Below, piece after piece: positions 5,942 through 43,919 of a stretch of DNA of 64,000 nucleotides. This DNA is from a virus: the IMG/VR virus record IMGVR_UViG_3300032307_000830, positions 1 through 64,000 of that record. The stretch is one strand, 5' to 3'. Each line of letters opens with the position of its first letter. The first letter of the stretch is position 1. The notes beneath the pieces are model-generated. The model was not told the origin of the DNA. It saw nothing but the letters and a program-made list of their open reading frames with translations, and did not search any database. A program made the position numbers and the translations under genes.

Positions 5942-7550
5942 ATTTCTTATATATAAAATTATTTATTATTAATAGATCAACAACATCGTTTTCTAGATGC
6001 GTAAACGCCTCGTCTGGGTGGCAAACAATTGGTTCTTCATGTACGTTAAACGATGTGTTCAATAAAACAGGTACACCCGTTATTTTATTATATTCGTCCA
6101 ATATCTTATGGAATGTTGGGTTTGACTTTGGTGTAACTATTTGTATTCTAGCCGTTTTATCTTTAGGGTGCACAACCGTTGGTATCTTATCAGACCACTC
6201 TGGTCTTGTATCATACAACATGGTCATAAATTGAGCTGTGTAAGCCGATTTATCAACTTTAAAGACTGTATTCGCGTGCTCTTCCATAACAGCTGGTGCA
6301 AATGGCATAAAGTCATTTCTTTGCAATTTGTTATTGATTTTATCATATGTTTCTGGGTTAGTTACTTCACCGATAATACTTCTATTACCCAGAGCCCTTG
6401 GCCCGTGTTCGTATCTACCATTAAATACACCGATAATCTTACCGTTAGCTAAGTACTTAGCAGCTTTTTCTGGTGTGAAAAGTTCTCTACTAAACTTATT
6501 AACATCCCAATATTGATCACCAACTTCATCATCGGTGTATGACGTACCCATAAAAACATCGTTTAGTTTAAACGGTTTAAATTCTGGGTTAAAAGTCTTG
6601 TGTACTACTAAAGCACAACCAAGTGCACAACCTTCATCACCCATTGGGGGTGTAACAAAGGCTTCGTTAACCCAGTATTGCTCATTAATTCGTTTATTTA
6701 ACTTAACATTCGCGAAAACACCACCAGCTAAAGCTATTTTTTTAACATCTGGGTATTGGTTATGTAAGTTTGTTAACAACTGAACAATCTTCTCCTCAAA
6801 AACTAATTGACCGTTATACGCTAAATCTTGTTTTGACCCAAGGTAAACCTTGGAGCCAATTCTTTTATAAAAAGAGGTGTAAAAATCTAAATAAACTTGC
6901 CCGAATAAAACACCCGAATCATCTTTATCGGTGTGAATACCCTCTATTTTTATAGCATCATTAAATGATTGGTATGCTACTAATTCATGCTTACCATGCC
7001 CAGCCATACCAACGACTTTACCCTCATCTTTTAGTCGTTTAAAACCCAAGAATTCGGTTAACATCGCATAATAGTGACCAAATGATTTATTTTTAAGACC
7101 AAGACCGTCAATAAAACTTAAATTACCGTTACTACCGATAAAATATTTTGCGCTATATTTACCACCACTAGCATCCATAGTCACGACTAAAGTATCTTCC
7201 TCAAAACCACTTAAATAATAAGCTGTTGCGGCGTGAGAATCATGGTGATCAACAAAAATAAATTTATGTTCTGGGAAAGGTAAACCAGTTTCTAATGTAT
7301 CCCATATTATTTTAACCTCATTTTTGGGGTAATAACTAGTTATGTAATCAATATCATTGATATTAAACCCTAGTTTATCTGTGGCATCCCTTAAACTAAA
7401 ATACGGGCATCTAAACACGTCTGAATAAAAATCTTTATAAACTTTTATCCTATTATGTCTCTCTTCTTCCAAAGAGAAAATAATTTTACCGTTATCTATT
7501 AAAGTAATACCACAACAATGACCACCAGCTGATATACCTAATATTTTCAT
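5922..7550 (-). CDS. O-carbamoyltransferase (NodU/TobZ family)
   Basis: The 542-residue protein has the two-part layout of the family. The N-terminal ASKHA/Kae1-like domain starts with ILGISAGGHCCG and carries the metal-binding DHHDSHAATAY around residue 100. The C-terminal domain has EHGPRALGNRSI and LNTSFNVHEEP. Known members transfer a carbamoyl group from carbamoyl phosphate to a sugar hydroxyl through carbamoyl-AMP. It sits between a GT9 and a GT4 gene, overlapping both (20 bp and 4 bp), so the acceptor is probably the glycan made by the neighbouring transferases. Length is normal and nothing is missing. Confidence 0.93.
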   Translation of the reverse strand: MKILGISAGGHCCGITLIDNGKIIFSLEEERHNRIKVYKDFYSDVFRCPYFSLRDATDKLGFNINDIDYITSYYPKNEVKIIWDTLETGLPFPEHKFIFVDHHDSHAATAYYLSGFEEDTLVVTMDASGGKYSAKYFIGSNGNLSFIDGLGLKNKSFGHYYAMLTEFLGFKRLKDEGKVVGMAGHGKHELVAYQSFNDAIKIEGIHTDKDDSGVLFGQVYLDFYTSFYKRIGSKVYLGSKQDLAYNGQLVFEEKIVQLLTNLHNQYPDVKKIALAGGVFANVKLNKRINEQYWVNEAFVTPPMGDEGCALGCALVVHKTFNPEFKPFKLNDVFMGTSYTDDEVGDQYWDVNKFSRELFTPEKAAKYLANGKIIGVFNGRYEHGPRALGNRSIIGEVTNPETYDKINNKLQRNDFMPFAPAVMEEHANTVFKVDKSAYTAQFMTMLYDTRPEWSDKIPTVVHPKDKTARIQIVTPKSNPTFHKILDEYNKITGVPVLLNTSFNVHEEPIVCHPDEAFTHLENDVVDLLIINNFIYKKYEGNIN

Positions 7551-8494
7551 TTACTATATTCTTTGAATAATTCCGCTAATTCCGTTGATCTATTATACCA
7601 CGATAAACTCTCAGCGTGGGCAATAGCTCTATTTCTATAAACTTCGTAATTATTTGTTATATCGTCTAAACCACGCACTAACTCAACGACATTTCTAGGC
7701 GCTCTCCACATACCATTAAAATCCGTCTCCATTTCAATCCAACCATTTACAGGTAAACCACAAGCCGCGGCCTCTAATATAGTTAAATTTGGGTGGCCAG
7801 CTTCTAGTTCAGATGGGTGCATAAAAATTGTGTGCCTATGATAAAGATTAACAAGTTCTTCTTGATTGGGTTCCCACTCCAAATTTAATTTTGGGTAACC
7901 AAAAACCCATGGGTTCTCGTTTAAGAAATTTTCATTATTTCTAGGCCCTGCTATTGTGATTGGTAAATTCCTAGCCATGGCAGCTTTAATTGCAAAACCA
8001 AAACCTTTTCTATCATAACCATTCATACCAGCCAAACCGTTATTAGCTAAACACAATAACCTATGTTCTTTAGGCGGGTTTTTAGCTGGGGTGAAAAAAT
8101 CCGTATTAACGCCATGCGAAAAATATACCGCTTTGGGTGTATCGAAATACGGTACCAAAAATTTACCAGGCATCAGTGAAACCAATGAATTTTCAATAGC
8201 TTTTAGATTTTCTTTAAAAACAAATGAGTTTTTACCGTAGTAAAAAGCATGGTGATCATGTAGCTGGTAAATGTAAGGTATATTCCTTTCGTGTAGGAAA
8301 TGACACAGATTGGCCATGTGTACATGTACGATATCATATTCACCTGGTTGGATCTCATTTGCGTACTTAATATCAACCTCGTGACCTAATAATCTTAAAT
8401 TTTGTGTGAATTCCCACACGATTTTTTCGACAGCACCCCAATTAGGTGGTGGTACTGGTATCCCGCATCCAGGATGTACTTGACATATTTTCAT
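7547..8494 (-). CDS. GT4-family glycosyltransferase
   Basis: The 315-residue GT-B protein starts with CQVHPGCGIPVPPPNWGAVE, the Gly-rich start of a GT4 acceptor domain. The C-terminal donor half contains SELEAGHPNLTILEAAACG, the E-x7-E signature that binds the nucleotide-sugar. It is slightly short for the family (usually 350-400). It overlaps the carbamoyltransferase by 4 bp and lies 9 bp downstream of the three-domain transferase, so it belongs to the same operon. Sugar donor and acceptor cannot be told from sequence. Confidence 0.9.
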   Translation of the reverse strand: MKICQVHPGCGIPVPPPNWGAVEKIVWEFTQNLRLLGHEVDIKYANEIQPGEYDIVHVHMANLCHFLHERNIPYIYQLHDHHAFYYGKNSFVFKENLKAIENSLVSLMPGKFLVPYFDTPKAVYFSHGVNTDFFTPAKNPPKEHRLLCLANNGLAGMNGYDRKGFGFAIKAAMARNLPITIAGPRNNENFLNENPWVFGYPKLNLEWEPNQEELVNLYHRHTIFMHPSELEAGHPNLTILEAAACGLPVNGWIEMETDFNGMWRAPRNVVELVRGLDDITNNYEVYRNRAIAHAESLSWYNRSTELAELFKEYSK

Positions 8495-8503
8495 AATGAA
8501 TTT

Positions 8504-11254
8504 TTAATTTGCGAATATGGCCGCAACATCGTTATCTTTATTTTTATCTTTTTTATCGACAATTGAATAACCAGGTAGGTGTTTTGTATAAACTTTGGTT
8601 GACATCGCACCGTGTAATCCAGCTACTTTAGTCATCCATAAATCAAACGCATCCCATTTACAAGTTTCAAACTTCTCAACAAAAGTAGGTAATTTTTCTC
8701 TATTAATCAAGTAAGATTGTGCTGGTGCGAAGATACTTAGGTTTAATAATAAATCTTCTCTTTGACCCTCATATCTTTCAGCAACATAGTTACCAAAACC
8801 AACCATATCAACATTTTCTTCCTTAGCCAATTGAGACCATCTGATCAAATTATCGTATAGTTCCTGATATGGACTATCAATGATAACGTCACCTTCAAAA
8901 ACAAGTACAAAATCGTATTTATCATTATCTGGTAATGTGATACCATTTTTATGTGCCAAGAAACAACCATAATGGCCTGGAGACAATTTAAAATATCCTG
9001 GTTCTGGCGCAACATCGTGAGGTCTGTTACAAGTATCAGCTGGTGGTAGATCTTTGTAGATTACGTTAACTTGCTCGTAGTACTCAACGTTATCAAAATT
9101 ACTAGCGAAGTCTTTTAATGAAAAAGCTGATCTAAGTTCTTTTTGATTCGTTGTTGGTTCTGTTACCAAGTGAACAATTCTAATCTTAGGTTTACCATCA
9201 TTTTCACCTTTTAATAAATCCACAGTATTAATATCACCATTATATGTGAACATACCGTTATTTGGTAATTTTGTTGTTAAATAATCATTATCAACTTCAA
9301 TTGATTTATACTCAATAAATTGTTTGGTGTCTTTATCGAAAGAAGAGTACTCGATAAGATATTTAGCATCTTCACTCAAATCAAAATTAACAATGCGGTA
9401 CCAAGCACCTTTACCTGTAACGGTTAATTGTTCTTCGTGTAATAAAGAATCGTTTTTGTTAATTTTTATATTAATAATACGGCTATCTATTGAATTTGAG
9501 ACCTGGAAATACGTGACAAATGTATTTGGTATGTTGCTAGGTAATAAAGTAAAATATTCTACCCTAGAATAGTCCCTATGGTGAAAATTTGTTGCGATTT
9601 CTGTCTTAAAAATCTCTTCACCAACTAATTCGATCTCATTTAACTTATCTTTAAACGCGAAATACATTAAATTTTCATAACCATTGCTATGGGAACCCCA
9701 TTTATGTCTTAAATTTTCATAATCATCCGCGTTAAAAACTCGATCTACATTATTCAAGTAAAACTCTGGTTTAATACCCATAAAGAATGTTGTGACAGAA
9801 TGGCCTTCAGCATTATTAGGCATATCACCAAAATACGCTGATTTTTTATTCAACACACTTGAGATGTTATCTAAATACGCGTCATTTTTTAACACGTAAT
9901 CGTAATTAAGGAAATAAACTTTTTCAAAACCCAGTTCATGAGCTAAAGCGGCACCGTTATAGTAGTTTGTATAGCAAGTTGGTCCGTGATAAACATCATT
10001 ACCTTCACCCCTTAAATTAACAAATGCGAAAAAATCGCCTTCACCGTATCTACTTTGGGAGTAAAAGGTGTGTTTTGTTAAAATATTGTTTTTATCGTAA
10101 ATACAATAATCAACTAGATTTTGTAAATCTGGTGAAATAGGTAAATGTGATGTTAAAATAACTTTTCTACCTGTTTTTTTTGCAGCTAAAATACACTCAA
10201 CAGTGGTATCAAAAGAACTTTTTGTTGTTGGGTAAGTTGATATGATCACAGCCTCATTCGATCTGTTAATATCCAATGCTGTATTTACTTCATAACCCGA
10301 TTCAAGTGTATTTTTAATTATTTCACAGTTTTTGTTAAAATCTGTGAAGTCCAAGTAATTAACATTATCGAATTTATCAAAATAGTTTAAATAAACATTT
10401 AAATTGTAAATTAAAATAGGTAAATTCCATGAAATTGCTTCACGAATAACTAATGGCATTGTTTCTTTATCGTTATCCGTTCCTCTAGAAGTAAATAGGA
10501 ATAAATCCATAGCCTGATAGAATCTATCCACATCTTTTCTTTCACCGTGCCAAACAACATTACTTGGTTTATCAATCATGAGCGGTTCCCAGTAATGGGC
10601 GAAGTTACCCGCTTGATTTCCAACTGAATGGAAAACATATTCTGGTAAAGATTTAGCGTATTCGAAAAATTCTTTCTGATTTTTTCTTGGTGTGAATAAA
10701 CCTACGTGTAAAACATGTTTCTTACTAGGATCTAAACCAAGATCTTTCAAAGCATCTTCTCTATTTGGCCTTTGTTTATATTCAATAGGGTACTCAACTA
10801 AAACTTTTGGGATATCGATTGATTCGTATTGTTTGATTTGCCAATTTGACACAAACATGAATTTATCTGGGAAGAATTTTTTTTGTGTTGCATCGTATGA
10901 TGAATCATGTGACGTTTCAACAATTATATAACCCCTATCTTTTTTATAGAGTTCCTTTGCAACATCAAAATCCATAAAATACTCTGGGATTTCTTCTAAA
11001 TGGACAATATCAGGAGAAATATTATTAATAATATTAATTAATTCCATTTTATTTTCCTCTAGAGTAAAGAATTTATCTCTAGCAACCATAGAAGTTATTT
11101 TATCGCGCTGTACGACAAGAACACCACCAGTGTGATTCGACCATTCAACTACGTAGATATCAAAAGTATCCCTAAGTAATTCAATTTTTTTGGTTAAATA
11201 TTGTGGTAAGCCACCTGTGGATAAATGCGGTGCTACATAAAGTAATTTTTTCAT
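8504..11254 (-). CDS. Three-domain glycosyltransferase (GT4, GT-A-like, GT25)
   Basis: The 916-residue protein looks like a fusion. Residues 1-310 are a GT4 unit (LHVGLFTPRKN at 182-192; DNDKETMPLVIREA at 260-273). Residues 330-560 look like a second transferase domain of GT-A type (IISTYPTTKSSFDTTVECI), less certain. Residues 570-680 may be a beta-sandwich linker. Residues 690-900 match GT25 LPS-type transferases: LSPGHYGCFLAHKNGI (757-772), then VFEGDV (785-790), where EGD replaces the usual EDD. It is first in its operon and probably adds two or three sugars in sequence. The unusual acidic motif may change or weaken the GT25 activity. Confidence 0.85.
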   Translation of the reverse strand: MKKLLYVAPHLSTGGLPQYLTKKIELLRDTFDIYVVEWSNHTGGVLVVQRDKITSMVARDKFFTLEENKMELINIINNISPDIVHLEEIPEYFMDFDVAKELYKKDRGYIIVETSHDSSYDATQKKFFPDKFMFVSNWQIKQYESIDIPKVLVEYPIEYKQRPNREDALKDLGLDPSKKHVLHVGLFTPRKNQKEFFEYAKSLPEYVFHSVGNQAGNFAHYWEPLMIDKPSNVVWHGERKDVDRFYQAMDLFLFTSRGTDNDKETMPLVIREAISWNLPILIYNLNVYLNYFDKFDNVNYLDFTDFNKNCEIIKNTLESGYEVNTALDINRSNEAVIISTYPTTKSSFDTTVECILAAKKTGRKVILTSHLPISPDLQNLVDYCIYDKNNILTKHTFYSQSRYGEGDFFAFVNLRGEGNDVYHGPTCYTNYYNGAALAHELGFEKVYFLNYDYVLKNDAYLDNISSVLNKKSAYFGDMPNNAEGHSVTTFFMGIKPEFYLNNVDRVFNADDYENLRHKWGSHSNGYENLMYFAFKDKLNEIELVGEEIFKTEIATNFHHRDYSRVEYFTLLPSNIPNTFVTYFQVSNSIDSRIINIKINKNDSLLHEEQLTVTGKGAWYRIVNFDLSEDAKYLIEYSSFDKDTKQFIEYKSIEVDNDYLTTKLPNNGMFTYNGDINTVDLLKGENDGKPKIRIVHLVTEPTTNQKELRSAFSLKDFASNFDNVEYYEQVNVIYKDLPPADTCNRPHDVAPEPGYFKLSPGHYGCFLAHKNGITLPDNDKYDFVLVFEGDVIIDSPYQELYDNLIRWSQLAKEENVDMVGFGNYVAERYEGQREDLLLNLSIFAPAQSYLINREKLPTFVEKFETCKWDAFDLWMTKVAGLHGAMSTKVYTKHLPGYSIVDKKDKNKDNDVAAIFAN

Positions 11255-30108: not shown

Positions 30109-30819
30109 GGCATCCAAATAATTGTCCTTAAAAATCTTATACAACGACTTAAATCTTTTCATACTATTCCTGATTTCCTTAGTATTTAAGCCCGTCATAT
30201 TTCGTATATATAACAATATTAGATTTTTATTAAACTTCGGTGAGTTCTTACCCTCATTTACTTGTGAGAACAGCTCGCGCCATTCTTCTAAAATTTTAGC
30301 CAATGAATGACCAACCTTAAATTCGTTCTCACTTAAATCATCAGCCTCTAAGTCTTTTCTTATACTAGAGGCCAAAGATTCAATAAAAATTGTTAAATCG
30401 AGATCATCATTATCAATCCTATATAATAAATCATCTCTTTTTAATACCTCACCTTCGTTTTGGTCAATGTCAACAAGTGACATATTTTTTTTATACTCTT
30501 TAACCATCTCGCCAAAGAGATAATTCTTACAGATAGTCCCGAAATATGAAAATGATCTCTTACCCTTTTCTGGTTTGAATTTATCAAATTTTGTCATTAA
30601 GAAGGATAGGGTGTCTGCATGTAAATCGTTGAATTCGTAGGATTGTCTGTATAATTTATACGTTCTTATAATACTTTCTATCATTTTATTGATAGGTTCT
30701 TGTAAGTGTTCTCTATAAATTTTCTCTCTTTCCTCAACAGTTTTAGCATCCAGAAACATGATCACCGCTTTCTCCTGGTCTACACCATAATAATTGCGAT
30801 CTTTTTTCTGTCTTGCCAT
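30106..30819 (-). CDS. Late-gene sigma factor, T4 gp55-like
   Basis: The 237-residue protein has a sigma-70 region-2-like core: YEFNDLHADTLSFLMTKFDKF (61-81) followed by KGKRSFSYFGTICKNYLFGEM (85-105). This is the pattern seen in gp55 proteins, which direct host RNA polymerase to late promoters together with the sliding clamp. No full sigma regions 3 or 4 are present, although the C-terminal helices (NMTGLNTKEIRNSMKRFKSL) look like a degenerate helix-turn-helix. It likely reads the TATTTAT-core motifs in this window. Confidence 0.85.
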   Translation of the reverse strand: MARQKKDRNYYGVDQEKAVIMFLDAKTVEEREKIYREHLQEPINKMIESIIRTYKLYRQSYEFNDLHADTLSFLMTKFDKFKPEKGKRSFSYFGTICKNYLFGEMVKEYKKNMSLVDIDQNEGEVLKRDDLLYRIDNDDLDLTIFIESLASSIRKDLEADDLSENEFKVGHSLAKILEEWRELFSQVNEGKNSPKFNKNLILLYIRNMTGLNTKEIRNSMKRFKSLYKIFKDNYLDA

Positions 30820-31649
30820 TATTCACCAACTTCATTTTCCTCATAAATTATATGCCTATCTTCGTTAAACATGTATTCTTTTTTGGCTGACTCCATCCAG
30901 AACAAAGCTTCTTTTGGATCGATTTTATATTCAACAGCCTCACTGTTTTTATAAAGCCAGAATAATGACCCGTTTCTCATATTTACGTGCTTATACCCTA
31001 TCTTAGGAATAACCATTGATTTATATCCGTTTTTATGAAAACGTAATAAGAACTCATAATTAAATGTTAATTTAATCTGTTTTAAACCATTTATTTCGTT
31101 ATAAACAGATGTTTTGATCACCATACCACACGGGTTGATATTTGGGTACTCTAACAAAGTCTCGAGGTCGATTGAACCTAAAGTCTCACTAAAGTTATAA
31201 GCCCAAACAGCCTCGTTTGATAAGCCAATAAACTTGTTATCTTCAGATACATCATTAATAATTGGTAGGAACATATCAACATCTGGATAAGCCGTAACAT
31301 AATCATTAACATTTTTGTACCAAGTTTTTGAAACCTCATCATCAAACTCAAGAACGCTCATAAATTCTGTTGTAACTTCTTTAGCGGCGAAATTTATCTG
31401 ACTTTGATAATCAGAATCACCATCGTTGGTTACCACATCGATGTTTAGGTCATATTTTTTAAAGTCAAAAGAGGCCATCTTAGTGATAACATCTAAACAG
31501 TTGCATGTTACAATTAATACTCTTTCTGGTTTAACATCGTTTCTGTCAATTGATGACAAAGCAACGTCAAATAAATCGTCAAAATTTTGCGTACCAATAC
31601 TTTCAACGGAATGTACTGGTATTATAACGGTTAAATTAGTTTTCTTCAT
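30819..31649 (-). CDS. GT2-type glycosyltransferase (GT-A fold)
   Basis: The 276-residue protein begins LTVIIPVHSVESIG, the classic GT2 start. VVTNDGDSDYQSQIN supplies the nucleotide site and LEFDDEV the acidic metal motif; INPCGMVIKTSVYNEINGLKQ is typical of the acceptor side. It overlaps the sigma-factor start by one base and the upstream transferase gene by 14 bp. Substrates are unknown. Confidence 0.87.
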   Translation of the reverse strand: MKKTNLTVIIPVHSVESIGTQNFDDLFDVALSSIDRNDVKPERVLIVTCNCLDVITKMASFDFKKYDLNIDVVTNDGDSDYQSQINFAAKEVTTEFMSVLEFDDEVSKTWYKNVNDYVTAYPDVDMFLPIINDVSEDNKFIGLSNEAVWAYNFSETLGSIDLETLLEYPNINPCGMVIKTSVYNEINGLKQIKLTFNYEFLLRFHKNGYKSMVIPKIGYKHVNMRNGSLFWLYKNSEAVEYKIDPKEALFWMESAKKEYMFNEDRHIIYEENEVGE

Positions 31650-32715
31650 TTTCTTCTACGGTTTGATTAAAATTTTCTTTTATTTTTTCAAGCTTTGACA
31701 TTTTTTTATTAAATAAATGTTCGAAAACTTCCATTGTGTTTTTCTCAAACACCTCTTTTGTATATTTTTCACCGATTGTTTGTGAAACGGTTAATAAGTT
31801 TTCAGGTAATGTATCATCTAACCAATTTTTAATGTAACTAGATAAGATTTCTGGAATCTGGTTTTCATCGTAAACCCAAATACCATTGTCATCAGTCATC
31901 CACTCTGGGATAATATTAGGTACTTTACCGATTACGGGTACATTACACTTAATTGATTCAACTGGAAAACGACCAAAAGATGAGTCGTCATCAACCCAAA
32001 TTGAAACAGCGCACTCTTTTAAGTTTTCAGCGAAATCTTTGTGGTTCATCGCGTGCATATCTTTAAAAGAAATAAATCGATAAATAGGGAATTTTAAGTA
32101 AAAAGCTTTAATGATTTTAGCTGCTTTTCTAGCCTCTCTACAATGAATCGCGATTATCGGTTTTTGTGGTTTTTCGCTAGCGGAAAAATTACCTTCAACC
32201 ATCGGCTCGATGAATTGTACATCTTCAACAGGTACGGTATCCTCAACCATAGTCTTTAATGTGTTTGACGTTGTGATGCATTCCTCGGCACCAAGATCAA
32301 CCCAAGATTTACCAGGTGAGAAAGCTTCCAACATGTAATCAAATGATTGTACGTAAATAATTTTTTCTAGTGGCATAGAGCTAATCTGTTCGAAAACGCT
32401 ACCATATACTTCTGGTACAACGATAAAATCAGATGGGCCCACAACAAGATTGTTATCCTCGATTGACATGTGCTCTAATTCATCACACTCTGGCGTTAAC
32501 CAAGAACCAACTTTAATGAAGTCATTTTTCTCGTGTAGAATCGCCACATTGTAGCCGTTATTTTTAAGAACAAGCGCTTGACTATACAAGTGTATAACGC
32601 TAGATTTACCGTTACCCTTTGTGTCGGGAACCAAAAAAATGATCTTATGTTCTTTGTTTTTAATCTTAGCGATTGCGGATTCAAGATTGCTAACTATTTC
32701 TTTAGTTTTTTCCAT
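31636..32715 (-). CDS. GT-B (GT4-like) glycosyltransferase
   Basis: The 359 residues show two Rossmann-like halves. The N-terminal half has KIIFLVPDTKGNGKSSVIHL and YVQSFDYMLEAF. The C-terminal half has VSIWVDDDSSFGRFPVESIKC with VPVIGKVPNIIPEW, the donor-binding E-containing region of GT4 enzymes. A helical tail follows. It overlaps both neighbours by 14 bp, an arrangement typical of this operon. Confidence 0.85.
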   Translation of the reverse strand: MEKTKEIVSNLESAIAKIKNKEHKIIFLVPDTKGNGKSSVIHLYSQALVLKNNGYNVAILHEKNDFIKVGSWLTPECDELEHMSIEDNNLVVGPSDFIVVPEVYGSVFEQISSMPLEKIIYVQSFDYMLEAFSPGKSWVDLGAEECITTSNTLKTMVEDTVPVEDVQFIEPMVEGNFSASEKPQKPIIAIHCREARKAAKIIKAFYLKFPIYRFISFKDMHAMNHKDFAENLKECAVSIWVDDDSSFGRFPVESIKCNVPVIGKVPNIIPEWMTDDNGIWVYDENQIPEILSSYIKNWLDDTLPENLLTVSQTIGEKYTKEVFEKNTMEVFEHLFNKKMSKLEKIKENFNQTVEENEEN

Positions 32716-34151: not shown

Positions 34152-34442
34152 TTAAAAGTAATTTTCGCTGTTTATGTTTTTATCATCAATAAATAAATCA
34201 TAAGGTGGCTTACCGAATTTTAATTCGTGATATTTTACACCCCACTCTTTAAATTGTTTTTTTGTTAACTCAGAATGGTCAATACCAGTTACTGAACCTC
34301 TCGCGGTCCAATAAACAATTGTATTACCCTCATCGTATAGATTATTTATTTTTTGTATTCTATCGAGCATCGGTTCTGAGGTAGCATAATCCGTACCACT
34401 CGTATTACAGATTGTATGATCAATATCAACGTATATTAACAT
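34152..34442 (-). CDS. Small HAD-family phosphatase
   Basis: At 96 residues it is a minimal HAD domain with an intact DIDHTIC (DxDxT) nucleophile, a motif II Thr in VYWTARGS, and a final acidic FIDDKN. Similar short HAD proteins sit in capsule and nonulosonic-acid gene clusters, and here it adjoins the glycan block. It overlaps the methyltransferase gene by 7 bp. The likely substrate is a small sugar- or nucleotide-phosphate. Confidence 0.85.
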   Translation of the reverse strand: MLIYVDIDHTICNTSGTDYATSEPMLDRIQKINNLYDEGNTIVYWTARGSVTGIDHSELTKKQFKEWGVKYHELKFGKPPYDLFIDDKNINSENYF

Positions 34443-35062
34443 ACTTTCTCAAAGAATAAAAACTCGTAATTAGATTTACCCTCTAATCGCTTACTAGCGA
34501 CTAAGTTGTAATTTGTTAAATAACCCAGAATATAATCGGAATTTGTTTGACAAGCTAACCTAACATTCTCTCTTTGGCTATAATCACCTCTAAACATAGT
34601 CTTTTTATTATATCTTATCTGTAACATTACTTCATTAATATTTGAATCATTTACATTTTTTAAGAAATTAATCAGGTATTTCTCATCTGGGAAATGTTGT
34701 ATAACAGCCTGTGATATAAAAATGTCAGCGCTTAGGTCATTAAACGTTTCTTTATCATCAACATTATAAAGATCAACATTTAAACCGTTTAAATTATTAC
34801 TGGCTTCGGCCAACTGTCTAACGGATATATCAAAACCGATATATTTTTTTATGTTTTTAGCTGAGAAAAGATATTGACCCAAAAAGCCACCACCTATGCC
34901 GTAATCAACCACAACTTTATCATTAAAATCGTATTTAGCGATAAAATTATTTTCCCAACTTTTTGTTAGGGTGTCGAAATCACCTAGATAATCGTTTATT
35001 TCTATGTGCGAAAAAACTGGGTCACACGTTTCCCAAAAATTTATTAACTCTTTTTTTTCCAT
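34436..35062 (-). CDS. SAM-dependent class I methyltransferase
   Basis: ATG at 35062 (MEKKELINF) is preferred to the upstream TTG, because it lies 2 bp after the preceding stop codon. The Rossmann core is clear: VVVDYGIGGGFLGQYL (motif I), IGFDIS (motif II) and DIFISQAVIQHF. Residues after 150 form a variable substrate part. In this setting it probably methylates a sugar or an aglycone of the phage-encoded glycan, but small-molecule or protein targets are possible. Confidence 0.87.
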   Translation of the reverse strand: MEKKELINFWETCDPVFSHIEINDYLGDFDTLTKSWENNFIAKYDFNDKVVVDYGIGGGFLGQYLFSAKNIKKYIGFDISVRQLAEASNNLNGLNVDLYNVDDKETFNDLSADIFISQAVIQHFPDEKYLINFLKNVNDSNINEVMLQIRYNKKTMFRGDYSQRENVRLACQTNSDYILGYLTNYNLVASKRLEGKSNYEFLFFEKVC

Positions 35063-35064
35063 AA

Positions 35065-35715
35065 CTATTTTCTTATAAATAGGCAATCCATGTAATCTGT
35101 GCCGAACCTACCCGTCCATTTTGATGAAAAATGTAGGTTATATCCAAGATCAATTATTTTTTGTACGTATTCATCTGTTTTATCTTTTAGATCTGGGTCA
35201 ATGAAATCATGAAACTCTATAGATATTTGATTTATTTTATCGCAAATTTCTGGTGTCAAGCTATCTATTAGAAAATACTCAGAACCCTCAATATCAATTT
35301 TTAAATAATCAATATAGTCAACACCAACATCGTTCATTAAATCTGAAATTGTGATAGTATTAACCATGTATTTTTTTGGTTCTTCCTCACCCCATTTAAA
35401 ATACTTGTTGTTTTCAGCTAAAATGTTACCAGCTTCGTGATTTTTTACCTCAGTAAAAAATAATTCAACATTACTTTCATTATATATGGCTTTATTTACC
35501 ATAATAACTTTATCATTACATAATGGTAGTAGATTGTTTTTAAATAACTCGATATTAGGTTCAACACCGATATATTTTTTAATCGAGTCTAAACCAAAAA
35601 ACTCAATAAATTTTTCATAGAATCTACCATCATTAGTGCCTAAATCAAAAATAACGATATCATTTTTTTTATTAACTAATATTGTGTGATCTAATAGTGT
35701 TTCTGTTCTTATCAT
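35065..35715 (-). CDS. FkbM-family O-methyltransferase
   Basis: The 216-residue protein shows the FkbM layout: IVIFDLGTNDGRFYEKF (motif I), IGVEPNIELF, and the family hallmark DYLKIDIEGSEYFLI. FkbM enzymes often methylate sugar hydroxyls in polysaccharide loci, matching its position between NeuB and another methyltransferase. It overlaps the NeuB gene by 4 bp. Confidence 0.92.
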   Translation of the reverse strand: MIRTETLLDHTILVNKKNDIVIFDLGTNDGRFYEKFIEFFGLDSIKKYIGVEPNIELFKNNLLPLCNDKVIMVNKAIYNESNVELFFTEVKNHEAGNILAENNKYFKWGEEEPKKYMVNTITISDLMNDVGVDYIDYLKIDIEGSEYFLIDSLTPEICDKINQISIEFHDFIDPDLKDKTDEYVQKIIDLGYNLHFSSKWTGRFGTDYMDCLFIRK

Positions 35716-36557
35716 TTTCTAAGTGTTTTCATCTTAGCCAACTCACCGCCAAAAAGTTCTCTAGCTTTTATCGGAATATTTAAACCAGCTTCTATATCAC
35801 GAATACCTTTAACTAGTTTAAATAAACCAGATGGTTCAATAGACGCTGAATGGTCGGAGCCCCACATAGTCCTATCCAAAGTAATATGACGCTCAATCCA
35901 GGTAACACCCATAGGTACCGTTGCAAATGTTGTAACAAGACCATATTCGTGCCCACTGTAACCAATTTCTTTATCAGTCCATTTTCTTTTTAACCAGGAG
36001 ATGTAGTTTAAATTTAACTCCTCTACTGGGCATGGGTAAGTTGAATTTGTGTGCATGATAACATCTGGTTGACAACTCAAAACACACTCATCGATTTGAC
36101 ATTCATCGCTCATTCCAGTTGATATCATCAAATAATCTGATTTTTGTCTAGCGTATTGGCACAAGTTAATGTCAGTTATTAAAGCTGATGGTATTTTCAT
36201 AACAACACCCAAATCAGTTTTATATCTCATCATAAAATCAACCGAATCCATATCCCAAACTGAGGCAAACCACCCTATATTTAACTGCTTACAAAATCTA
36301 TCAATTTCATCATATTCTTTTTCACCGAATTCAGTTTTCCATTTATATTCGAGGTACGTTATCTCACCCCAAGGTGTTTGACGCATTTTACTTTTTTGAT
36401 CTTCTGGGACGCAAACATCTGGGTTTCTTTTTTGAAACTTTACGTAATCACACCCAGCGGCTTTAGCTACCATAATTAATTGTTTGGCTATTTCAATATC
36501 GCCGTTGTGGTTAATCCCTATTTCCGCGATTACCTTAACTTTGTTGTTCTTCTTCAT
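35712..36557 (-). CDS. neuB: N-acetylneuraminate (nonulosonic acid) synthase, NeuB-like
   Basis: The 281-residue TIM barrel has the NeuB signatures: VIAEIGINHNGDIEIAKQL, DYVKFQKRNPD, MKIPSALITD, ISTGMSDE, NSTYPCP, GYSGHEYG and WGSDHSASIEPSG. The enzyme joins phosphoenolpyruvate to an N-acylated hexosamine to form sialic acid or a relative such as legionaminic or pseudaminic acid; sequence alone does not tell which. The C-terminal antifreeze-like (SAF) domain of full-length NeuB (about 340-350 residues) is missing. It overlaps the sialyltransferase-like fusion gene by 23 bp. Confidence 0.93.
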   Translation of the reverse strand: MKKNNKVKVIAEIGINHNGDIEIAKQLIMVAKAAGCDYVKFQKRNPDVCVPEDQKSKMRQTPWGEITYLEYKWKTEFGEKEYDEIDRFCKQLNIGWFASVWDMDSVDFMMRYKTDLGVVMKIPSALITDINLCQYARQKSDYLMISTGMSDECQIDECVLSCQPDVIMHTNSTYPCPVEELNLNYISWLKRKWTDKEIGYSGHEYGLVTTFATVPMGVTWIERHITLDRTMWGSDHSASIEPSGLFKLVKGIRDIEAGLNIPIKARELFGGELAKMKTLRK

Positions 36558-38382
36558 AATATTTTGCTTTTATTGTTGTTATAATTTCACCAGCATCAAA
36601 ACCGTCTATCATCATATCGTAAATATCTCTCACAATATCTGAGTCATAAAATCTAACCTTTACGTTTTTATTAATAAAATTACTTAAAGCAATAATAACA
36701 AAATTAAGATCAAAGTCAAGAGAGTGTGGTTTATTCTCATCAACATATGGGTTTATAAATTTTGAAACTCCGTGTTCTTTAAATGATCCATCCTCATTTA
36801 TCCTACTATATAGGTTGTAACCGATTATGTTAACGCGTTTACTGTTTAGTAAACTAAAGAACAACATCATACTAACCCCAGATGTTGGTAGAGGTAATTT
36901 TCTATTATGTTCCCTTCTTTTTGTTATTGCGTAGTATGAATTAGATCTAGCGCACATAAAATTAAATGGGTCGACATTGTGCGTGTTTGTTGGGTGTTGT
37001 TTTTCTAAAGTTTTTCTAACATTACCCGTTAGAAGCCACAATTTATCTGGGTTAAAGTTACCGTTAGTTATTTCGTTTAATAACACTATTTCATTTGTTG
37101 AGCAATAGTAATAATCAACGTCAAACAGATGGGCTAATTTAAAACCCCAGTTTGTTGTTACAACCCTAGTTTGTAATATTTCGGGTAAAACCGAATACAA
37201 CATTTCGTTACCAATACCAGATGAAACCAAGCTAACACTACCTAAATCAACAGATAAAAACCTATATTTTTTAGAGTAATCCAACCAAAGCTTTTCTATT
37301 GCTTTGTAGTCTTTTTCAAATTCCTTTTGTTTAATGTTCCAAGGTTTTTCACCAACATAATGTATAACTTTTATGTCTTTTAAAGCACTAGCTAATTCAT
37401 CTGATTTGGAGTCATCAAAACATCTTTTTAGTAGGTTATAATCTGACGACAAAAATAAAACATCAAAATTTTTCAAATACTCATTAAGTAAACTTTGATC
37501 CAGAAACTTGGGGTTAGTTAATTTTGGGAATAGGTTTAACATGTTTTTCACATGTTCATCTGAGCGCATAAAAGAACCGCTTAGTAGTAAAAAACCGCCA
37601 TTTAATGAAACATCGTCTGAACCAGCTTTTTTGATAATAGGTTTTCTTATGTACTGGGATGTGTCCCTTGTTGCCGCGATATCGTGATCAATAAGATATA
37701 AATCTCTTAAAGAGTTAACAACTAACATATCACTATCTAAATACAAAACCTTATCATAATCAGTAAAATTAAAGATCTCAATTGTTAACACCGATGGTAT
37801 AAACCTATGAAAATTTTTACTTATTTTACTTTTGAAAAGAGTTATTACATCATTGTAATGACCCGTTGTATCAATTTTTTTAAAGATTGTTTTTCTATAG
37901 AATAACTTTAACTCATCAATCTTTTCATCAGATAATGGTGACAATTCATCACTATACATTATAATCAGATCCCCATTGAACCATGGGTTGTTTTCCAAAA
38001 ATGAGTTTATAAAAACGTAAAAATGGTCAGCAAATGGGTTATTTAATATTGTGGTTAACGCGTATCTTTCAGGTAAAACCCTGTTCATCTTAATATTCGC
38101 CTTATCTTTTAAATCAGACTTCTCAACATCAATTTTTTTAGCAAACGAGCTTAGGTTGATGTCGTCTTCCTTTTTTTCTTTAACTAATTTTACGGTTGTT
38201 TTATATACAGGTTCTTCCTGCGTATGTGTTTTTCTCTTTATATCCTTTTTTTCTGGTATAACATTAACCTCTTCAACGATACTTTCTTGTATCGCCGTGT
38301 CAATATTAACCTCTTTATCAATAACCTCTTGTTTGATTAATTTACTGGTTATAGCCCTATTTTTCTTTAAGAAATACCCCAT
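36535..38382 (-). CDS. GT8 glycosyltransferase fused to a sialyltransferase-like domain
   Basis: Residues 1-100 are a charged, likely disordered leader. Residues 105-370 form a GT8 (LgtC-like) domain: YDKVLYLDSDML with DxD at 216-218, LNGGFLLLSG and HYVGEKPWN. Residues 375-570 form a second module with LPTSGVSMMLFFSLL, NIIGYNLYS and KPHSLDFDLN, resembling bacterial sialyltransferases (GT42/GT29-like) or related DUF115-type folds; this part is tentative. Sitting between neuB and neuA, the pairing suggests successive addition of a hexose and a nonulosonic acid. It overlaps both neighbours (23 and 26 bp). Confidence 0.82.
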   Translation of the reverse strand: MGYFLKKNRAITSKLIKQEVIDKEVNIDTAIQESIVEEVNVIPEKKDIKRKTHTQEEPVYKTTVKLVKEKKEDDINLSSFAKKIDVEKSDLKDKANIKMNRVLPERYALTTILNNPFADHFYVFINSFLENNPWFNGDLIIMYSDELSPLSDEKIDELKLFYRKTIFKKIDTTGHYNDVITLFKSKISKNFHRFIPSVLTIEIFNFTDYDKVLYLDSDMLVVNSLRDLYLIDHDIAATRDTSQYIRKPIIKKAGSDDVSLNGGFLLLSGSFMRSDEHVKNMLNLFPKLTNPKFLDQSLLNEYLKNFDVLFLSSDYNLLKRCFDDSKSDELASALKDIKVIHYVGEKPWNIKQKEFEKDYKAIEKLWLDYSKKYRFLSVDLGSVSLVSSGIGNEMLYSVLPEILQTRVVTTNWGFKLAHLFDVDYYYCSTNEIVLLNEITNGNFNPDKLWLLTGNVRKTLEKQHPTNTHNVDPFNFMCARSNSYYAITKRREHNRKLPLPTSGVSMMLFFSLLNSKRVNIIGYNLYSRINEDGSFKEHGVSKFINPYVDENKPHSLDFDLNFVIIALSNFINKNVKVRFYDSDIVRDIYDMMIDGFDAGEIITTIKAKYYEEEQQS

Positions 38383-39004
38383 CTAGATCGACTTTTGTGT
38401 CAACGTCTGTAACATCATTAATTTTTAAAAAAAATGTTTCATTGTTATATAAATTATTATTAAGTTCATTAAAGTAACTAACATTAAATATAGCTATATA
38501 GTGAGAAATTTCAAATAATAATGGATAATCTTGCCTTCTATATAGATTATGTTCAATTAATTGCTTACCCATGTTATTTCCCAGATCAAACATATATAGA
38601 TACGGGTGCGTACCCTTTATCTCTTTTTTACATAAAAGAGAATTACTGGAACTCTCAACAAAAGCGTTATAAGCTCTTTCAACGTCATTCCAAGTCCTCT
38701 CTGGATATGTGAGATAAAGCATTATAACCAGAGACTTTTCATCAATATCACCATTATCGATATGGTACTGCACCACATCTTTTGTACTAGTTTCATCTTT
38801 AGCTAAATTATCTGGTCTAATGGATACACTCAACCCCATTAATTTAGCTTTTTCGATTAAAACCTCATCGTCTGTTGAAATCAAGACTTTGCTAAGTAAT
38901 TCATTAGGGATGATGTTAATCGTATTATCAAATAGGATTCTATTTTTAAACGGCAAACCTTTTGAGTTCCTTCTTGCTGGGATTAGTATGGTTAGATTAT
39001 CCAT
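38357..39004 (-). CDS. neuA: CMP-sialic acid synthetase, NeuA-like
   Basis: The 215-residue cytidylyltransferase has the P-loop-like IPARRNSKGLPFKN (8-21), ISTDDEVLIEKAKLMGL, RPDNLAKDETSTKDVVQ and LYLTYPERTWNDV. It would activate the NeuB product to the CMP-sugar for the sialyltransferases on either side. Its order between neuB and the GT29-like gene is that of a dedicated pathway. The length is normal for the catalytic domain (about 220-230). Confidence 0.93.
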   Translation of the reverse strand: MDNLTILIPARRNSKGLPFKNRILFDNTINIIPNELLSKVLISTDDEVLIEKAKLMGLSVSIRPDNLAKDETSTKDVVQYHIDNGDIDEKSLVIMLYLTYPERTWNDVERAYNAFVESSSNSLLCKKEIKGTHPYLYMFDLGNNMGKQLIEHNLYRRQDYPLLFEISHYIAIFNVSYFNELNNNLYNNETFFLKINDVTDVDTKVDLDGVFLKEK

Positions 39005-39530
39005 TAACCAATAATTTAACTTTACCGTCTCTTATTAATTCACTAACTAAGGATTCCTCAATATTGGGTGCATGACCTCTCATTACCGAGTCATCTTCAT
39101 AGTAGTGCACACCGTTTTTAAAAAAATCAAAACCATGTATCTTTACGGTATAACCCTCTTCAATAAAATAAAATATCATTACAAGACCAGTTGTGGCCCA
39201 TGAATTGTTTTTATTAATGAGTTTATTAATTTTATTATAAAAACTAAGTGGTATTATGGTATACCCATTTTCAATTAGTTCGTTAATTTTTTGGGTATTT
39301 GGTGCCGCTACACTAGGGTAAGCGAAAAATTTTTGATCAAACTTAACATTGTTATGTTTATTTGACATCACCGTTTTAACCCAGTAATTAGTTTTTTTAC
39401 CCACAAATTTTTCAAAAGATTCGGTTTCAAAATTATTAAACCTAACAACAATATCATGTGAATCAATTAATTCACCGTATTCATTATTTAGACAAGAAGG
39501 TCCGTTACCGATTAATAAGATTTCCCTCAT
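38997..39530 (-). CDS. GT29-like sialyltransferase
   Basis: The 177-residue protein starts with a text-book sialylmotif-L-like segment (LLIGNGPSCLNN, then ELIDSHDIVVRFNNF, residues 5-34). A motif-S-like NSWATTGLVMIFYFI (109-123) with IHGFDFF follows, and then HYYEDD and HAPNIEE as candidates for the final His/Glu motifs. It is much shorter than animal or bacterial GT29 proteins (about 300), so it is a compact catalytic core without membrane anchor. It lies 4-8 bp overlapped between NeuA and the GT2 fusion, so CMP-nonulosonate is the expected donor. Confidence 0.85.
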   Translation of the reverse strand: MREILLIGNGPSCLNNEYGELIDSHDIVVRFNNFETESFEKFVGKKTNYWVKTVMSNKHNNVKFDQKFFAYPSVAAPNTQKINELIENGYTIIPLSFYNKINKLINKNNSWATTGLVMIFYFIEEGYTVKIHGFDFFKNGVHYYEDDSVMRGHAPNIEESLVSELIRDGKVKLLVNG

Positions 39531-40960
39531 AAAACTTTTTTAATTTTACCTAACTCGGAAATAAACATCTCCTCATGTTTTTCTGGTGAAAAGTCATATT
39601 GGTAACCCAAAGCTCTATCACGATTAAATTTACTTAACCTATTGTGGTAGGCTTTCATTTTCTCTAAAAAATAGTTTAATCCTATTTTTTTTAAGTGTAA
39701 TAATTTAATCGGTTTATCATAAAAAACCACATTACCTTGTGGTGCCGCAACATGACAACCAAAGTTATAGTTTATTTCATTAATCTCTTTTGGTTTGAAC
39801 ATACAAAACTTATTAAAGTGGTTGTGTTCGTAACCATGTGTTACATCACTAAGTATAGAACCAGATTTTGTTAAATCAAAATCCTTAATCATCATTTCAA
39901 AACCAGTTGGTTTTATAATGGTCGCGTTACTTTCCTTAAAATCTTTTAAATATTGACCCAGATTATCGGCGTAAAGAAATTCATCCATGTCACACACAAT
40001 AACGATATCAGCGTTTTTAGATTGCTTCCAACCATTATTTTTGATTACTAAGTATGCGTCATCTCTAATTTCACCGTTTGTGTCATACGATATAATCTTT
40101 ACTTTAGGGTGTTTTCTTAATATACTAAGGCTACCATCAGTTGACTTATTATCGTAAACGACTATGTTGCTAACAAAATTCTCATAGTGTCTTAGGAAAT
40201 GTGGTATTATTTTCTCCTCATTCCAACATAAAACATGTATATCAACATTTGGTAAGGTTTGGTCAAAAATTATATGTTCATTCTCTTTATCAACACAAAC
40301 TGGTAAGTATTCAGAGTAAAGCTCCTCAAATAAATTTTTATTAGACTCCCATTTTTCATTTGTTAAACCAACGGATTTATGTATTATTTCGATATTAGAC
40401 ATAACACCTATATCAACACCTTCTAAATAGTTTTCCACGCAAAAAGGTATGTCATAAAAATGGAACCCTTCGAATCTTTGATCGAACCCAAGAACAATCC
40501 TACGTCTGTCAACAGCCATAAACACACCGTCAACCGCAACGACTTGTTTTAGTTGGTTACCGTAGCTATCAGAATACTTATTTTCCCATATCCTGGTACC
40601 ATCTGTATGTTTAACGCGTCCATGCATCGCCTTTCTAATTCTCCACCACATACCGTCAACCATATGTGTTGTACCAGCGAGACCCAAAATACCGTATTCT
40701 TGGTGTCGATTAAAAGCTTTTATAACCTTTTCACCCCAATTTTTAGTATTAAAAATAATATCGTCATGGCAGAAAACAATAATATCACTTTCAGCTTCCT
40801 TTAAACCTTTGTTATAGACTTCCGCTAGAGAATATTCGCCGTTATTTTCATACGGTAAAACCTCTACACCTTTATGTAGACAAGTTTTTTTTAAATGCTC
40901 AACAAAGTTGTCGTCTATTTTTCTGGTTGAAAAAACGATACTAATTTTAATATTACTCAT
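39527..40960 (-). CDS. Two-domain glycosyltransferase (GT2 plus Glyco_tranf_2_4-like)
   Basis: Residues 1-225 are a GT2-type unit (ISIVFSTRKIDD, SDIIVFCHDDIIF, VVAVDGVFMAVDRR). Residues 245-477 form a second GT-A unit of the Glyco_tranf_2_4/GT92-like type: VDIHVLCWNEEKIIPHFLRHY, YDNKSTDGSLSIL and the metal motif VCDMDEFL. Both appear intact. It overlaps the sialyltransferase by 4 bp and an unknown gene by 8 bp. It would supply two linkages of the same oligosaccharide. Confidence 0.88.
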   Translation of the reverse strand: MSNIKISIVFSTRKIDDNFVEHLKKTCLHKGVEVLPYENNGEYSLAEVYNKGLKEAESDIIVFCHDDIIFNTKNWGEKVIKAFNRHQEYGILGLAGTTHMVDGMWWRIRKAMHGRVKHTDGTRIWENKYSDSYGNQLKQVVAVDGVFMAVDRRRIVLGFDQRFEGFHFYDIPFCVENYLEGVDIGVMSNIEIIHKSVGLTNEKWESNKNLFEELYSEYLPVCVDKENEHIIFDQTLPNVDIHVLCWNEEKIIPHFLRHYENFVSNIVVYDNKSTDGSLSILRKHPKVKIISYDTNGEIRDDAYLVIKNNGWKQSKNADIVIVCDMDEFLYADNLGQYLKDFKESNATIIKPTGFEMMIKDFDLTKSGSILSDVTHGYEHNHFNKFCMFKPKEINEINYNFGCHVAAPQGNVVFYDKPIKLLHLKKIGLNYFLEKMKAYHNRLSKFNRDRALGYQYDFSPEKHEEMFISELGKIKKVL

Positions 40961-43126: not shown

Positions 43127-43876
43127 TTATTTTGGAACAACGACCCCTCGCCTACTTACAACATCTGAAGCCATTAAATTACCAAAATCAATAGACTTTG
43201 CAATATCCGTAGTTTCGAAATATTTTAATATAAAGGCAGATGTGAATGTATCCCCAGCACCACTAACATCAATCGTGTCTCTAGGGTTTTTTGATGGATA
43301 AACAATGCCGTCAAACTCAGCCCCATGTTTACCTAAAGTGGTGATTATGTTTAATCCCTCAATATCGGATTTATTCTGTGAGTCTCGTTCACTTTTATTT
43401 AATTTAATAAAATCAAACTGCTTAAATATGTTTGACATCTTTCTTTTACTATCCAAGATAGATATTTTGCTATAATAGGCTATTTTTGATATTACCTCAT
43501 CACTCAAAAAACCTTTGTTATAGTCACTAACAATGACAATATCGGATAAAAGTATCTTATTGATGATGGATTCTGTTAATACAAGCGGTGTTATGTAACC
43601 TTCACCCTCATCAACTCTAACAATCATTTGATTACTTTTTTCATCAACAAATCTTGTTTTGGTTATTTCAGTTTCTTGTGTGATAAAATTTATTTCGCAA
43701 GTATTATTAATAGCTTTAAGGTTCTCAACAACATTACCAGCCATACCAGGATTTTCAACAACCCTAAATGGGTTTAATACAGGTACGGGTGCTTCTGGAC
43801 AAAGTCTTGTAACGTCACCATAAATAAATTTGTCAGTACACATTTCACCGATAACGGTCACTAATATCTTATCCAT
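43127..43876 (-). CDS. PfkB sugar kinase resembling the HldE heptose-7-phosphate kinase domain
   Basis: ATG at 43876 (MDKILVTVIG) is preferred: the longer frame to 43918 would begin inside the upstream terminator. The 249-residue protein matches the kinase half of HldE/RfaE: YGDVTRLCPEAPVPVLNP, NPGMAGNVVENL (42-53), ITKTRFVDEKSNQMIVRVD, IVSDYNKGFL and the catalytic DVSGAGDT (203-210). HldE-type kinases make heptose-1,7-bisphosphate on the path to ADP-heptose; the adenylyltransferase half is absent here. This links it to the GT9 heptosyltransferase-like gene at 4706-5941. Other PfkB substrates cannot be excluded. Confidence 0.85.
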   Translation of the reverse strand: MDKILVTVIGEMCTDKFIYGDVTRLCPEAPVPVLNPFRVVENPGMAGNVVENLKAINNTCEINFITQETEITKTRFVDEKSNQMIVRVDEGEGYITPLVLTESIINKILLSDIVIVSDYNKGFLSDEVISKIAYYSKISILDSKRKMSNIFKQFDFIKLNKSERDSQNKSDIEGLNIITTLGKHGAEFDGIVYPSKNPRDTIDVSGAGDTFTSAFILKYFETTDIAKSIDFGNLMASDVVSRRGVVVPK

Positions 43877-43880
43877 ATCA

Positions 43881-43888
43881 CAAATATA
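43881..43888 (-). promoter_or_regulatory. TATATTTG promoter-like box, leaderless arrangement
   Basis: The - strand reads TTTTGTATATTTGTGATATGG. The box ends only 4 nt before the kinase ATG, so transcription would start at or just before the start codon. It directly follows the terminator of the preceding gene. Confidence 0.5.
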
Positions 43889-43895
43889 CAAAAAA

Positions 43896-43919
43896 AATGA
43901 GGGTAAACAAACCCTCATT
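43896..43919 (-). terminator. Rho-independent terminator
   Basis: AATGAGGGT pairs with ACCCTCATT around a 6-base loop, followed on the - strand by T8. It ends the transcript of the 64-residue protein gene at 43946-44140. Confidence 0.92.

Follow-up and report, generated by a model that had tools for sequence, protein, structure and literature searches.

A large T4-type phage appears to carry its own pathway for a sialic acid–type sugar (a nonulosonate), encoded by five consecutive, overlapping genes and a small phosphatase gene close by. We consider it probable that this pathway operates in the cytoplasm, leading from a host hexose-6-phosphate to a CMP-activated sugar and from there to a glycan cap, most likely on virion proteins. 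The five genes lie at 35712-40960 on the minus strand of the window, by which we mean the whole stretch of 64,000 nucleotides analyzed, itself part of the 64,525-base IMG/VR virus record IMGVR_UViG_3300032307_000830. The record carries T4-type genes for the major head protein, portal, terminase, tail sheath, and DNA polymerase.

Results

A predicted cassette for synthesis, activation, and transfer

An earlier reading of the DNA without database searches (hereafter, the sequence-only reading) had proposed that genes for synthesis, activation, and transfer of such a sugar stand in a single overlapping operon. Coordinates and strand of all five open reading frames (ORFs) were confirmed, with overlaps of 23, 26, 8, and 4 bp, and the Pfam matches of all five proteins pass Pfam's own cut-offs, including those to NeuB, CTP_transf_3, and Glyco_transf_29 that had been suggested as a check by hidden Markov model search. 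The proposed arrangement is thus borne out by both families and overlaps (Table 1). The synthase gene also overlaps the adjoining FkbM methyltransferase gene by 4 bp, and the overlapping run continues downstream with that gene, another methyltransferase gene, and the gene for a 96-aa HAD protein, followed by PhoH; upstream of the cassette are a 101-aa protein that matches no Pfam family, and a dUTPase. The most closely related viral contigs (L004 and L009) preserve the gene order of the cassette, which excludes a chance arrangement. Between dUTPase and PhoH, the island varies in content among the closest relatives (L004-L013), with NeuB, NeuA, and HAD constant. No PHROGs family was matched at E 0.01 by NeuB, NeuA, the GT8 fusion, or the GT29 protein.

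The synthase is, as had been read, NeuB-like in that it consists of the NeuB barrel, but it lacks the classical SAF domain and misses the sugar-specific cut-offs, scoring 195 bits against the NCBIfam model NeuB_NnaB (cut-off 399.65) and 135.5 bits against the Pse synthase model (cut-off 340.25). In Neisseria meningitidis NeuB, the SAF domain supplies the residue that contacts the N-acetyl group. We found this domain in none of 11 NeuB family members, in none of a second set of 16 (the window protein and 15 scanned cellular relatives, all 15 of which lack it), and in none of seven records. Residues E12, Q42, K121, S124, H203, H224, and D235 are invariant across the 11 members. Viral NeuB proteins measure 270-303 aa in 62 of 63 representatives (58 of them at most 285 aa), with one that reads as 507 aa, and 59 of the 60 viral tails examined have LR near the C-terminal end. 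The best solved match of the NeuB profile is PDB 6ncs (E 6.7e-48), a SAF-less NeuB from Leptospira, and its 290-aa chain is aligned nearly to the end. Neither protein has a SAF domain, although 6ncs is cellular and ours phage-borne; in the alignments, a TPWG-containing segment shared by the phage NeuB and its cellular relatives is partly missing from 6ncs. The best 80 cellular relatives are 48-60% identical and include Chlorobiaceae, Anaerolineae, Hymenobacter, and Streptosporangiaceae.

For the activation step, the proposed NeuA-like CMP-sugar synthetase is upheld by its CTP_transf_3 score (28.2 bits, Pfam cut-off 22.6) and by its alignment to the CMP–N-acetylneuraminic acid (Neu5Ac) synthetase PDB 1eyr (E 4.5e-13, spanning 4-208). 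It has a NeuA-like N-terminal motif and a C-terminal DxD, of which D202 is invariant and D200 nearly so.

Two predicted sialyltransferase-type proteins

The compact protein encoded next to NeuA has been confirmed as GT29-like: it scores 60.5 bits against Pfam Glyco_transf_29 (cut-off 23), and the profile of its family matches the solved structure 2wnb (E 1.9e-23). Its AlphaFold2 (AF2) model has a predicted local distance difference test score (pLDDT) of 88.7 and a predicted template modeling score (pTM) of 0.88. With this model as query, all 30 Foldseek matches at E ≤0.001 are mammalian sialyltransferases, and the VIA comparison with ST3Gal1 (2wnb) gives Z 16.1 and a root mean square deviation (rmsd) of 2.7 over 167 aligned residues. 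On the strength of the predicted model, this protein has a GT29 sialyltransferase fold. It carries the sialyl motifs L, S, III (HYYE), and VS (HxxxxE). H153, the His of HxxxxE and presumed catalytic residue, is invariant in 18 aligned relatives and E158 is kept in at least 90%; motif III, as HY[YWF], is found in 12 of the 18 and is missing from the L014 protein as well as the fused copies in L005, L007, L010, L011, and L030. The protein thus resembles the GT29 sialyltransferases ST3Gal1, ST6GalNAc2, and ST8SiaIII in these motifs and in predicted fold, but has 177 aa where solved GT29 chains have ~265-320, and its motif L begins near residue 3, leaving no room for an N-terminal anchor.

The second candidate is the protein read as a GT8 transferase fused to a possible sialyltransferase. 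Its GT8 part stands (Pfam Glyco_transf_8, E 2.1e-18, residues 113-349), whereas the rest of the protein has no Pfam match and its C-terminal portion is nearest to GT42 in the model but not in sequence. The C-terminal model (pLDDT 81.0, pTM 0.84) has CstII (1ro8) as its best Foldseek match (E 3e-4), and the VIA comparison gives Z 11.6 with Cst-I (2p2v; rmsd 3.9, 191 aligned) and Z 10.8 with CstII. The top nine VIA rows are Campylobacter and Pasteurella sialyltransferases (Z 9.6-11.6), with SteA, the highest-scoring non-sialyltransferase (9.4), and HPPK (9.2) close behind. The GT42 enzymes Cst-I and CstII therefore offer the closest predicted fold, although here the domain is fused behind GT8 and has no detectable sequence match to them. 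Structure prediction, the other check that had been proposed, places sialyltransferase-type folds nearest to both candidates; on these models, such a fold is likely but not certain for the GT8-fused domain and surer for the GT29 protein. The outcomes that would have spoken against the sequence-only reading, NeuB and NeuA clearly belonging to other families or the candidates modeling without a sialyltransferase fold, were not observed. The remaining cassette gene encodes a double GT2, as had been read, with Glyco_tranf_2_5 at residues 26-212 (E 8e-27) and Glyco_tranf_2_4 at residues 247-333 (E 1.2e-16).

A candidate phosphatase beside the synthase

The 96-aa HAD protein, which the sequence-only reading had passed over, scores 26.3 bits against TIGR01689 (EcbF/BcbF), far under the cut-off of 162, and matches PDB 9iqw, a capsule biosynthesis protein (E 4e-10). 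Residues D6, D8, T10, T46, K78, and D87 are invariant in 14 of 14 sequences; the phage proteins are mostly 96-117 aa long and carry a DxDxT signature. To quantify its association with the synthase, our main count used 80 viral NeuB loci, corresponding to 61 representatives, 42 of them well flanked. NeuA is present in 40 of the 42, HAD in 36, GT29 in 13, and NeuB, NeuA, and HAD occur together in 35. An alternative count with other thresholds (83 loci, 63 representatives at 95% identity, 44 well flanked) gave HAD in 37, NeuA in 41, and GT29 in 15. We also searched from the other genes: HAD-first (80 loci, 76 with ORF, 69 representatives, 52 well flanked), NeuA-first (72 loci, all 72 with ORF, 52 representatives, 39 well flanked), and GT29-first (80 loci, 79 with ORF, 48 representatives, 17 well flanked). 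Near-identical contigs were collapsed, and related phages persist in all sets. Searching from NeuA, NeuB was present in 30 and HAD in 23 of the 39 well-flanked loci. We take the mini-HAD, from these sequence associations, to be a sugar phosphatase of phage glycan islands, presumably serving NeuB in the present cassette.

Among HAD representatives without phage-type NeuB, 17 of 42 have a distant NeuB-like protein. A second, distant NeuB-like family thus occurs in phages (e.g., L306 8015-9106, 363 aa, Pfam NeuB E 5.4e-39). A cluster of thiamine pyrophosphate enzymes was observed in 12 of the same 42.

Cellular SAF-less NeuB genes have a different neighbor. Of 52 usable loci, 41 have a KdsC-like phosphatase within 3 kb, and in 18 it is fused to NeuA; a KdsC-type phosphatase was found at one of 80 viral NeuB loci. 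The 52 come from 80 cellular loci, in the others of which the NeuB ORF was lost or extended too far by the simple ORF caller; six of the cellular loci had served as seeds for the KdsC profile, which makes the count partly circular. The phage-type HAD appears in a single one of the 52, a Flavobacteriales metagenome-assembled genome (L101) where no KdsC was found. There, phage-type NeuB and HAD are 3 bp apart, within a cellular capsule locus that also contains CpsB/CapC, Wzz/chain-length, ABC-2, and Wzt-type genes. With KdsC in cells and the mini-HAD in phages and L101, the one synthase is accompanied by either of two dissimilar phosphatases, each standing in for the other. Of three phosphatases examined from cells, two (L117 and L102) have as best matches PDB 3e81/3e84/3e8m/4hgo (entry name acylneuraminate cytidylyltransferase), structures of BT1713, the phosphatase of Bacteroides thetaiotaomicron for the 9-phosphate of 2-keto-3-deoxynononic acid (KDN). 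L102, a neighbor of the phage clade in the NeuB tree, has an ordered run of NeuB, NeuA, phosphatase, and a Kdo (3-deoxy-octulosonate) transferase-like gene. This locus (7001-10225) belongs to Neomarinimicrobiota, and its nonulosonate perhaps replaces Kdo on lipid A.

Distribution and history

Scanning IMG/VR with the NeuB alignment confirmed NeuB relatives on at least 572 stretches, and a GT29 scan yielded 178. Among 50,697 deposited phage records, by comparison, three have a NeuB relative and one a GT29 relative at E 1e-3, and no GT8 fusion was found in deposited phages by tblastn at the same threshold. An uncultured phage of 484 kb (LR756508) has NeuB, four GT29 genes, and a mini-HAD within 5.2 kb (L002 9253-14421), with a NeuA relative ~14 kb away.

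In a 108-row NeuB tree, 59 of 61 viral proteins form one clade (support 99/99), with cellular L101 inside it and L102 adjoining; the viral proteins of L003 and L016 fall among the cellular rows, on long branches. The tree is rooted at its midpoint with the bootstrap not settled, and nearly all viral and cellular rows are top matches of the phage profile. Repeated capture of NeuB from hosts is not favored in the sampled set, with 59 of the 61 viral rows on one branch.

In another viral locus (L010 4087-4749), a protein resembling DUF115/MptE (Pfam E 8.2e-7, under the cut-off) overlaps NeuA, and a cluster judged similar by eye is present in 14 of 63 viral representatives. Since MptE/Maf folds resemble sialyltransferases, these proteins may be further nonulosonate transferases.

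Neighboring genes and the probable acceptor

Table 1. Genes of the cassette and its surroundings in the window
Feature	Position	Strand	Evidence
NeuB-family nonulosonate synthase, 281 aa, TIM barrel only	35712..36557	-	Pfam NeuB E 2e-58
96-aa HAD, proposed nonulosonate-9-phosphate phosphatase	34152..34442	-	TIGR01689 (sub-cut-off), PDB 9iqw, invariant residues
NeuA-like CMP-nonulosonate cytidylyltransferase, 215 aa	38357..39004	-	Pfam CTP_transf_3 E 2.1e-6
Compact GT29 sialyltransferase (predicted), 177 aa	38997..39530	-	Pfam Glyco_transf_29 E 2.3e-16, predicted fold
GT8 (aa 113-349) fused to GT42-like domain (aa ~370-615)	36535..38382	-	Pfam GT8, predicted model
Protein with two GT2-type domains	39527..40960	-	Pfam Glyco_tranf_2_5, Glyco_tranf_2_4
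FkbM-type methyltransferase, possible sugar O-methylation	35065..35715	-	Pfam Methyltransf_21 E 2.3e-15
Class I methyltransferase, TTG start as listed	34436..35086	-	Pfam Methyltransf_31 E 3.1e-8
Weak GT1/GT4-type glycosyltransferase, far side of PhoH	31636..32715	-	Glycos_transf_1 E 0.004, below Pfam cut-off
Weak GT2-type glycosyltransferase	30819..31649	-	Glycos_transf_2 E 0.00036, below Pfam cut-off

A second glycan island occupies window positions 4706-11254 on the minus strand and ends ~100 bp from the major head gene. It encodes a TibC/Aah-type protein O-heptosyltransferase (TIGR04414, 310 bits, cut-off 200), a carbamoyltransferase (E 3e-59), a GT4-type protein, and a 916-aa GT1-type protein. 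TIGR04414 is matched above cut-off in four of seven records, the present one included. A PfkB kinase at 43127-43918 (minus strand) is closest to the heptose-7-phosphate kinase domain of HldE (118 bits, below the cut-off of 345), and SIS_2 (GmhA-type) of ADP-heptose synthesis was found in none of the seven records. Window positions 282-3245 (plus strand) encode a 987-aa collagen-repeat protein (Collagen E 2.2e-88) with a C-terminal Peptidase_S74 chaperone domain, likely a fibre and possibly a glycan acceptor. We regard the virion as the most likely acceptor, with a confidence that is about evenly balanced: no flippase, polymerase, or exporter was found among the island proteins scanned, and a TibC-type O-heptosyltransferase is encoded so close to the major head gene.

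The T4-type late promoter TATAAATA occurs 11 times versus 12.95 expected, and no expression timing can be read from it. Judged by terminase and head protein, the isolates closest to this phage are the Flavobacterium phages immuto and Microcystis phage Mel-JY01, together with the uncultured 484-kb phage, at ~27-40% identity, too distant for a host to be named. Aquatic Bacteroidota are a tentative guess for the hosts, given the remote resemblance to Flavobacterium phages and the Flavobacteriales locus L101.

Discussion

From these families and their arrangement we infer each catalytic step, the sugar, and the acceptor as follows. NeuB would condense phosphoenolpyruvate (PEP) with a host hexose-6-phosphate, most likely mannose-6-phosphate to give KDN-9-phosphate, or possibly N-acetylmannosamine (ManNAc)-6-phosphate. 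The mini-HAD would take off the phosphate, and NeuA would convert the sugar to its CMP form. The GT8 and GT2 enzymes would start a short glycan, to which the GT29 protein and the GT42-like domain would add the nonulosonate cap, and methyl groups may trim it. The glycan would most likely be placed on virion proteins, with the host surface as the main alternative.

The sequence-only reading had left to the host only the precursor, ManNAc or a bacillosamine-type relative. The synthase, activation, and transfer genes are indeed there, but that precursor gives way to a probable hexose-6-phosphate, and a candidate phosphatase is added. Given that both the cellular and the phage context indicate a phosphorylated intermediate and a cassette-encoded phosphatase, the precursor is probably mannose-6-phosphate or ManNAc-6-phosphate; the context of the synthase suggests a phosphorylated route, most simply from mannose-6-phosphate to KDN. 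No precursor gene is seen in the operon, which would be explained by mannose-6-phosphate being a common metabolite. The KDN pathway of B. thetaiotaomicron (BT1713-1715) and Prymnesium parvum, as set out in PMC6200933, runs from mannose-6-phosphate and PEP to KDN-9-phosphate, through a phosphatase to KDN, and through a CMP-KDN synthetase to CMP-KDN, and a figure legend there notes that routes from unphosphorylated sugars require no phosphatase. A 9-phosphate synthase, a phosphatase, and a CMP-sugar synthetase would be common to that pathway and the present cassette, which differs in being phage-borne and in its candidate phosphatase, a 96-aa HAD distantly EcbF/BcbF-like and not of BT1713/KdsC type.

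Several observations weigh against this reading, and part of them would suit a route in which an unphosphorylated host sugar, such as ManNAc or another amino sugar, is turned by NeuB directly into Neu5Ac, legionaminic acid, or pseudaminic acid, and the HAD serves some other sugar of the island. The best NCBIfam models are the Neu5Ac synthase NeuB_NnaB for NeuB and PseF for NeuA (61 bits, cut-off 205.7). Both scores are far under cut-off, so no named sugar can be assigned, and the term "sialic acid" used in the sequence-only reading was too specific. Searching from the HAD, phage-type NeuB was present in just 20 of 52 well-flanked loci and missing from the other 32; a strict bond between HAD and NeuB is ruled out by this count. 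Within 5 kb of viral NeuB, a UDP-N-acetylglucosamine (UDP-GlcNAc) 2-epimerase cluster recurs in 13 of 63 representatives and two clusters of DegT aminotransferases in 15 and 12 of 63, identities that rest on one scanned example each; the sugar thus probably varies among phages, with different nonulosonates elsewhere and ManNAc as the starting point for some of them. The NeuA-fused phosphatase of L106 is closer to 3mmz and KdsC than to the BT1713 structures. GT29 and NeuB show a partial linkage, GT29 being present in 13 of 42 NeuB loci and NeuB in nine of 17 GT29-first loci, and a profile of the GT8-fused C-terminal domain (seven sequences) had no match to E 1 among solved structures, CstI and CstII included. 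For the present cassette we nevertheless hold the unphosphorylated route to be unlikely: KdsC-like phosphatases are tied to the cellular SAF-less relatives in 41 of 52 loci, the phage NeuB has no SAF domain, and no NeuC-type epimerase was found in its own record or in five of six related records, which may be fragments.

The phosphorylated route could also serve a different end, the glycan remodeling the host surface so as to shut out superinfecting phages or alter the receptor while a long infection lasts. Rapid lysis, as is usual in virulent T4-type phages, counts against such a use, as do the lack of flippase, polymerase, and exporter among the island proteins scanned and the O-heptosyltransferase island next to the major head gene. 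The island does vary between close relatives, however, the cellular counterpart of the NeuB-HAD pair (L101) sits in a capsule locus, and a role at the host surface has been proposed for variable phage clusters of glycosyltransferases, PfkB kinases, HAD phosphatases, carbamoyltransferases, and methyltransferases (PMC7824862, section 3.4.10); we regard it as possible but doubtful. Attachment of the sugar to phage DNA as a hypermodification seems very improbable. DNA-modifying phage glycosyltransferases are known (from a reference cited in PMC12619734), but a variable island with many glycosyltransferases fits a surface glycan, and no gene for modified-pyrimidine synthesis was seen among the proteins scanned, which are part of the ORFs. 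Moreover, GT29 and GT42 enzymes are known for acting on sugar acceptors.

Phage glycan islands are already known. The clusters for lipopolysaccharide or capsule modification of cyanophages and jumbo phages (P-SSM2, S-SSM6a; PMC7824862) are likewise variable islands of glycosyltransferases, methyltransferases, carbamoyltransferases, PfkB kinases, and HAD phosphatases, but section 3.4.10 mentions no NeuB, NeuA, or sialyltransferases, and the present island adds GT29 and GT42-like enzymes as part of a predicted nonulosonate branch. Mycobacteriophage virions bear glycans on capsid and tail tube (Freeman et al. 2023, as cited in PMC12619734), and the citing passage names no nonulosonate pathway. 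The genes neuA and neuB are among those counted in viral metagenomes in PMC3877843, whose title warns of cellular contamination. Our searches, which covered openly licensed papers, turned up no account of nonulosonate synthesis by a phage, and PMC13282480 contains none of four sugar terms looked for. We tentatively suggest that phages keep a long-diverged pathway of their own from central metabolism to CMP-KDN (or a near relative of it), with a separately recruited mini-phosphatase in place of the cellular one, and sialylate their virions by it, a trait widespread among uncultured phages and almost absent from isolates.

Cells classically control recognition through a coat of sialic acid–type sugars, and similar sugars may be used by phages to cover themselves or their hosts. 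If the proposed pathway is true, using only host hexose phosphates, PEP, and CTP, it would enable a virus to make such a coat even in a host without these sugars, and a nonulosonate coat would change adsorption, superinfection, and recognition. The cassette also offers very small candidate sialyltransferases (177 aa) and a candidate new type of phosphatase for nonulosonate synthesis, and what phage glycan islands decorate becomes directly testable by mass spectrometry.

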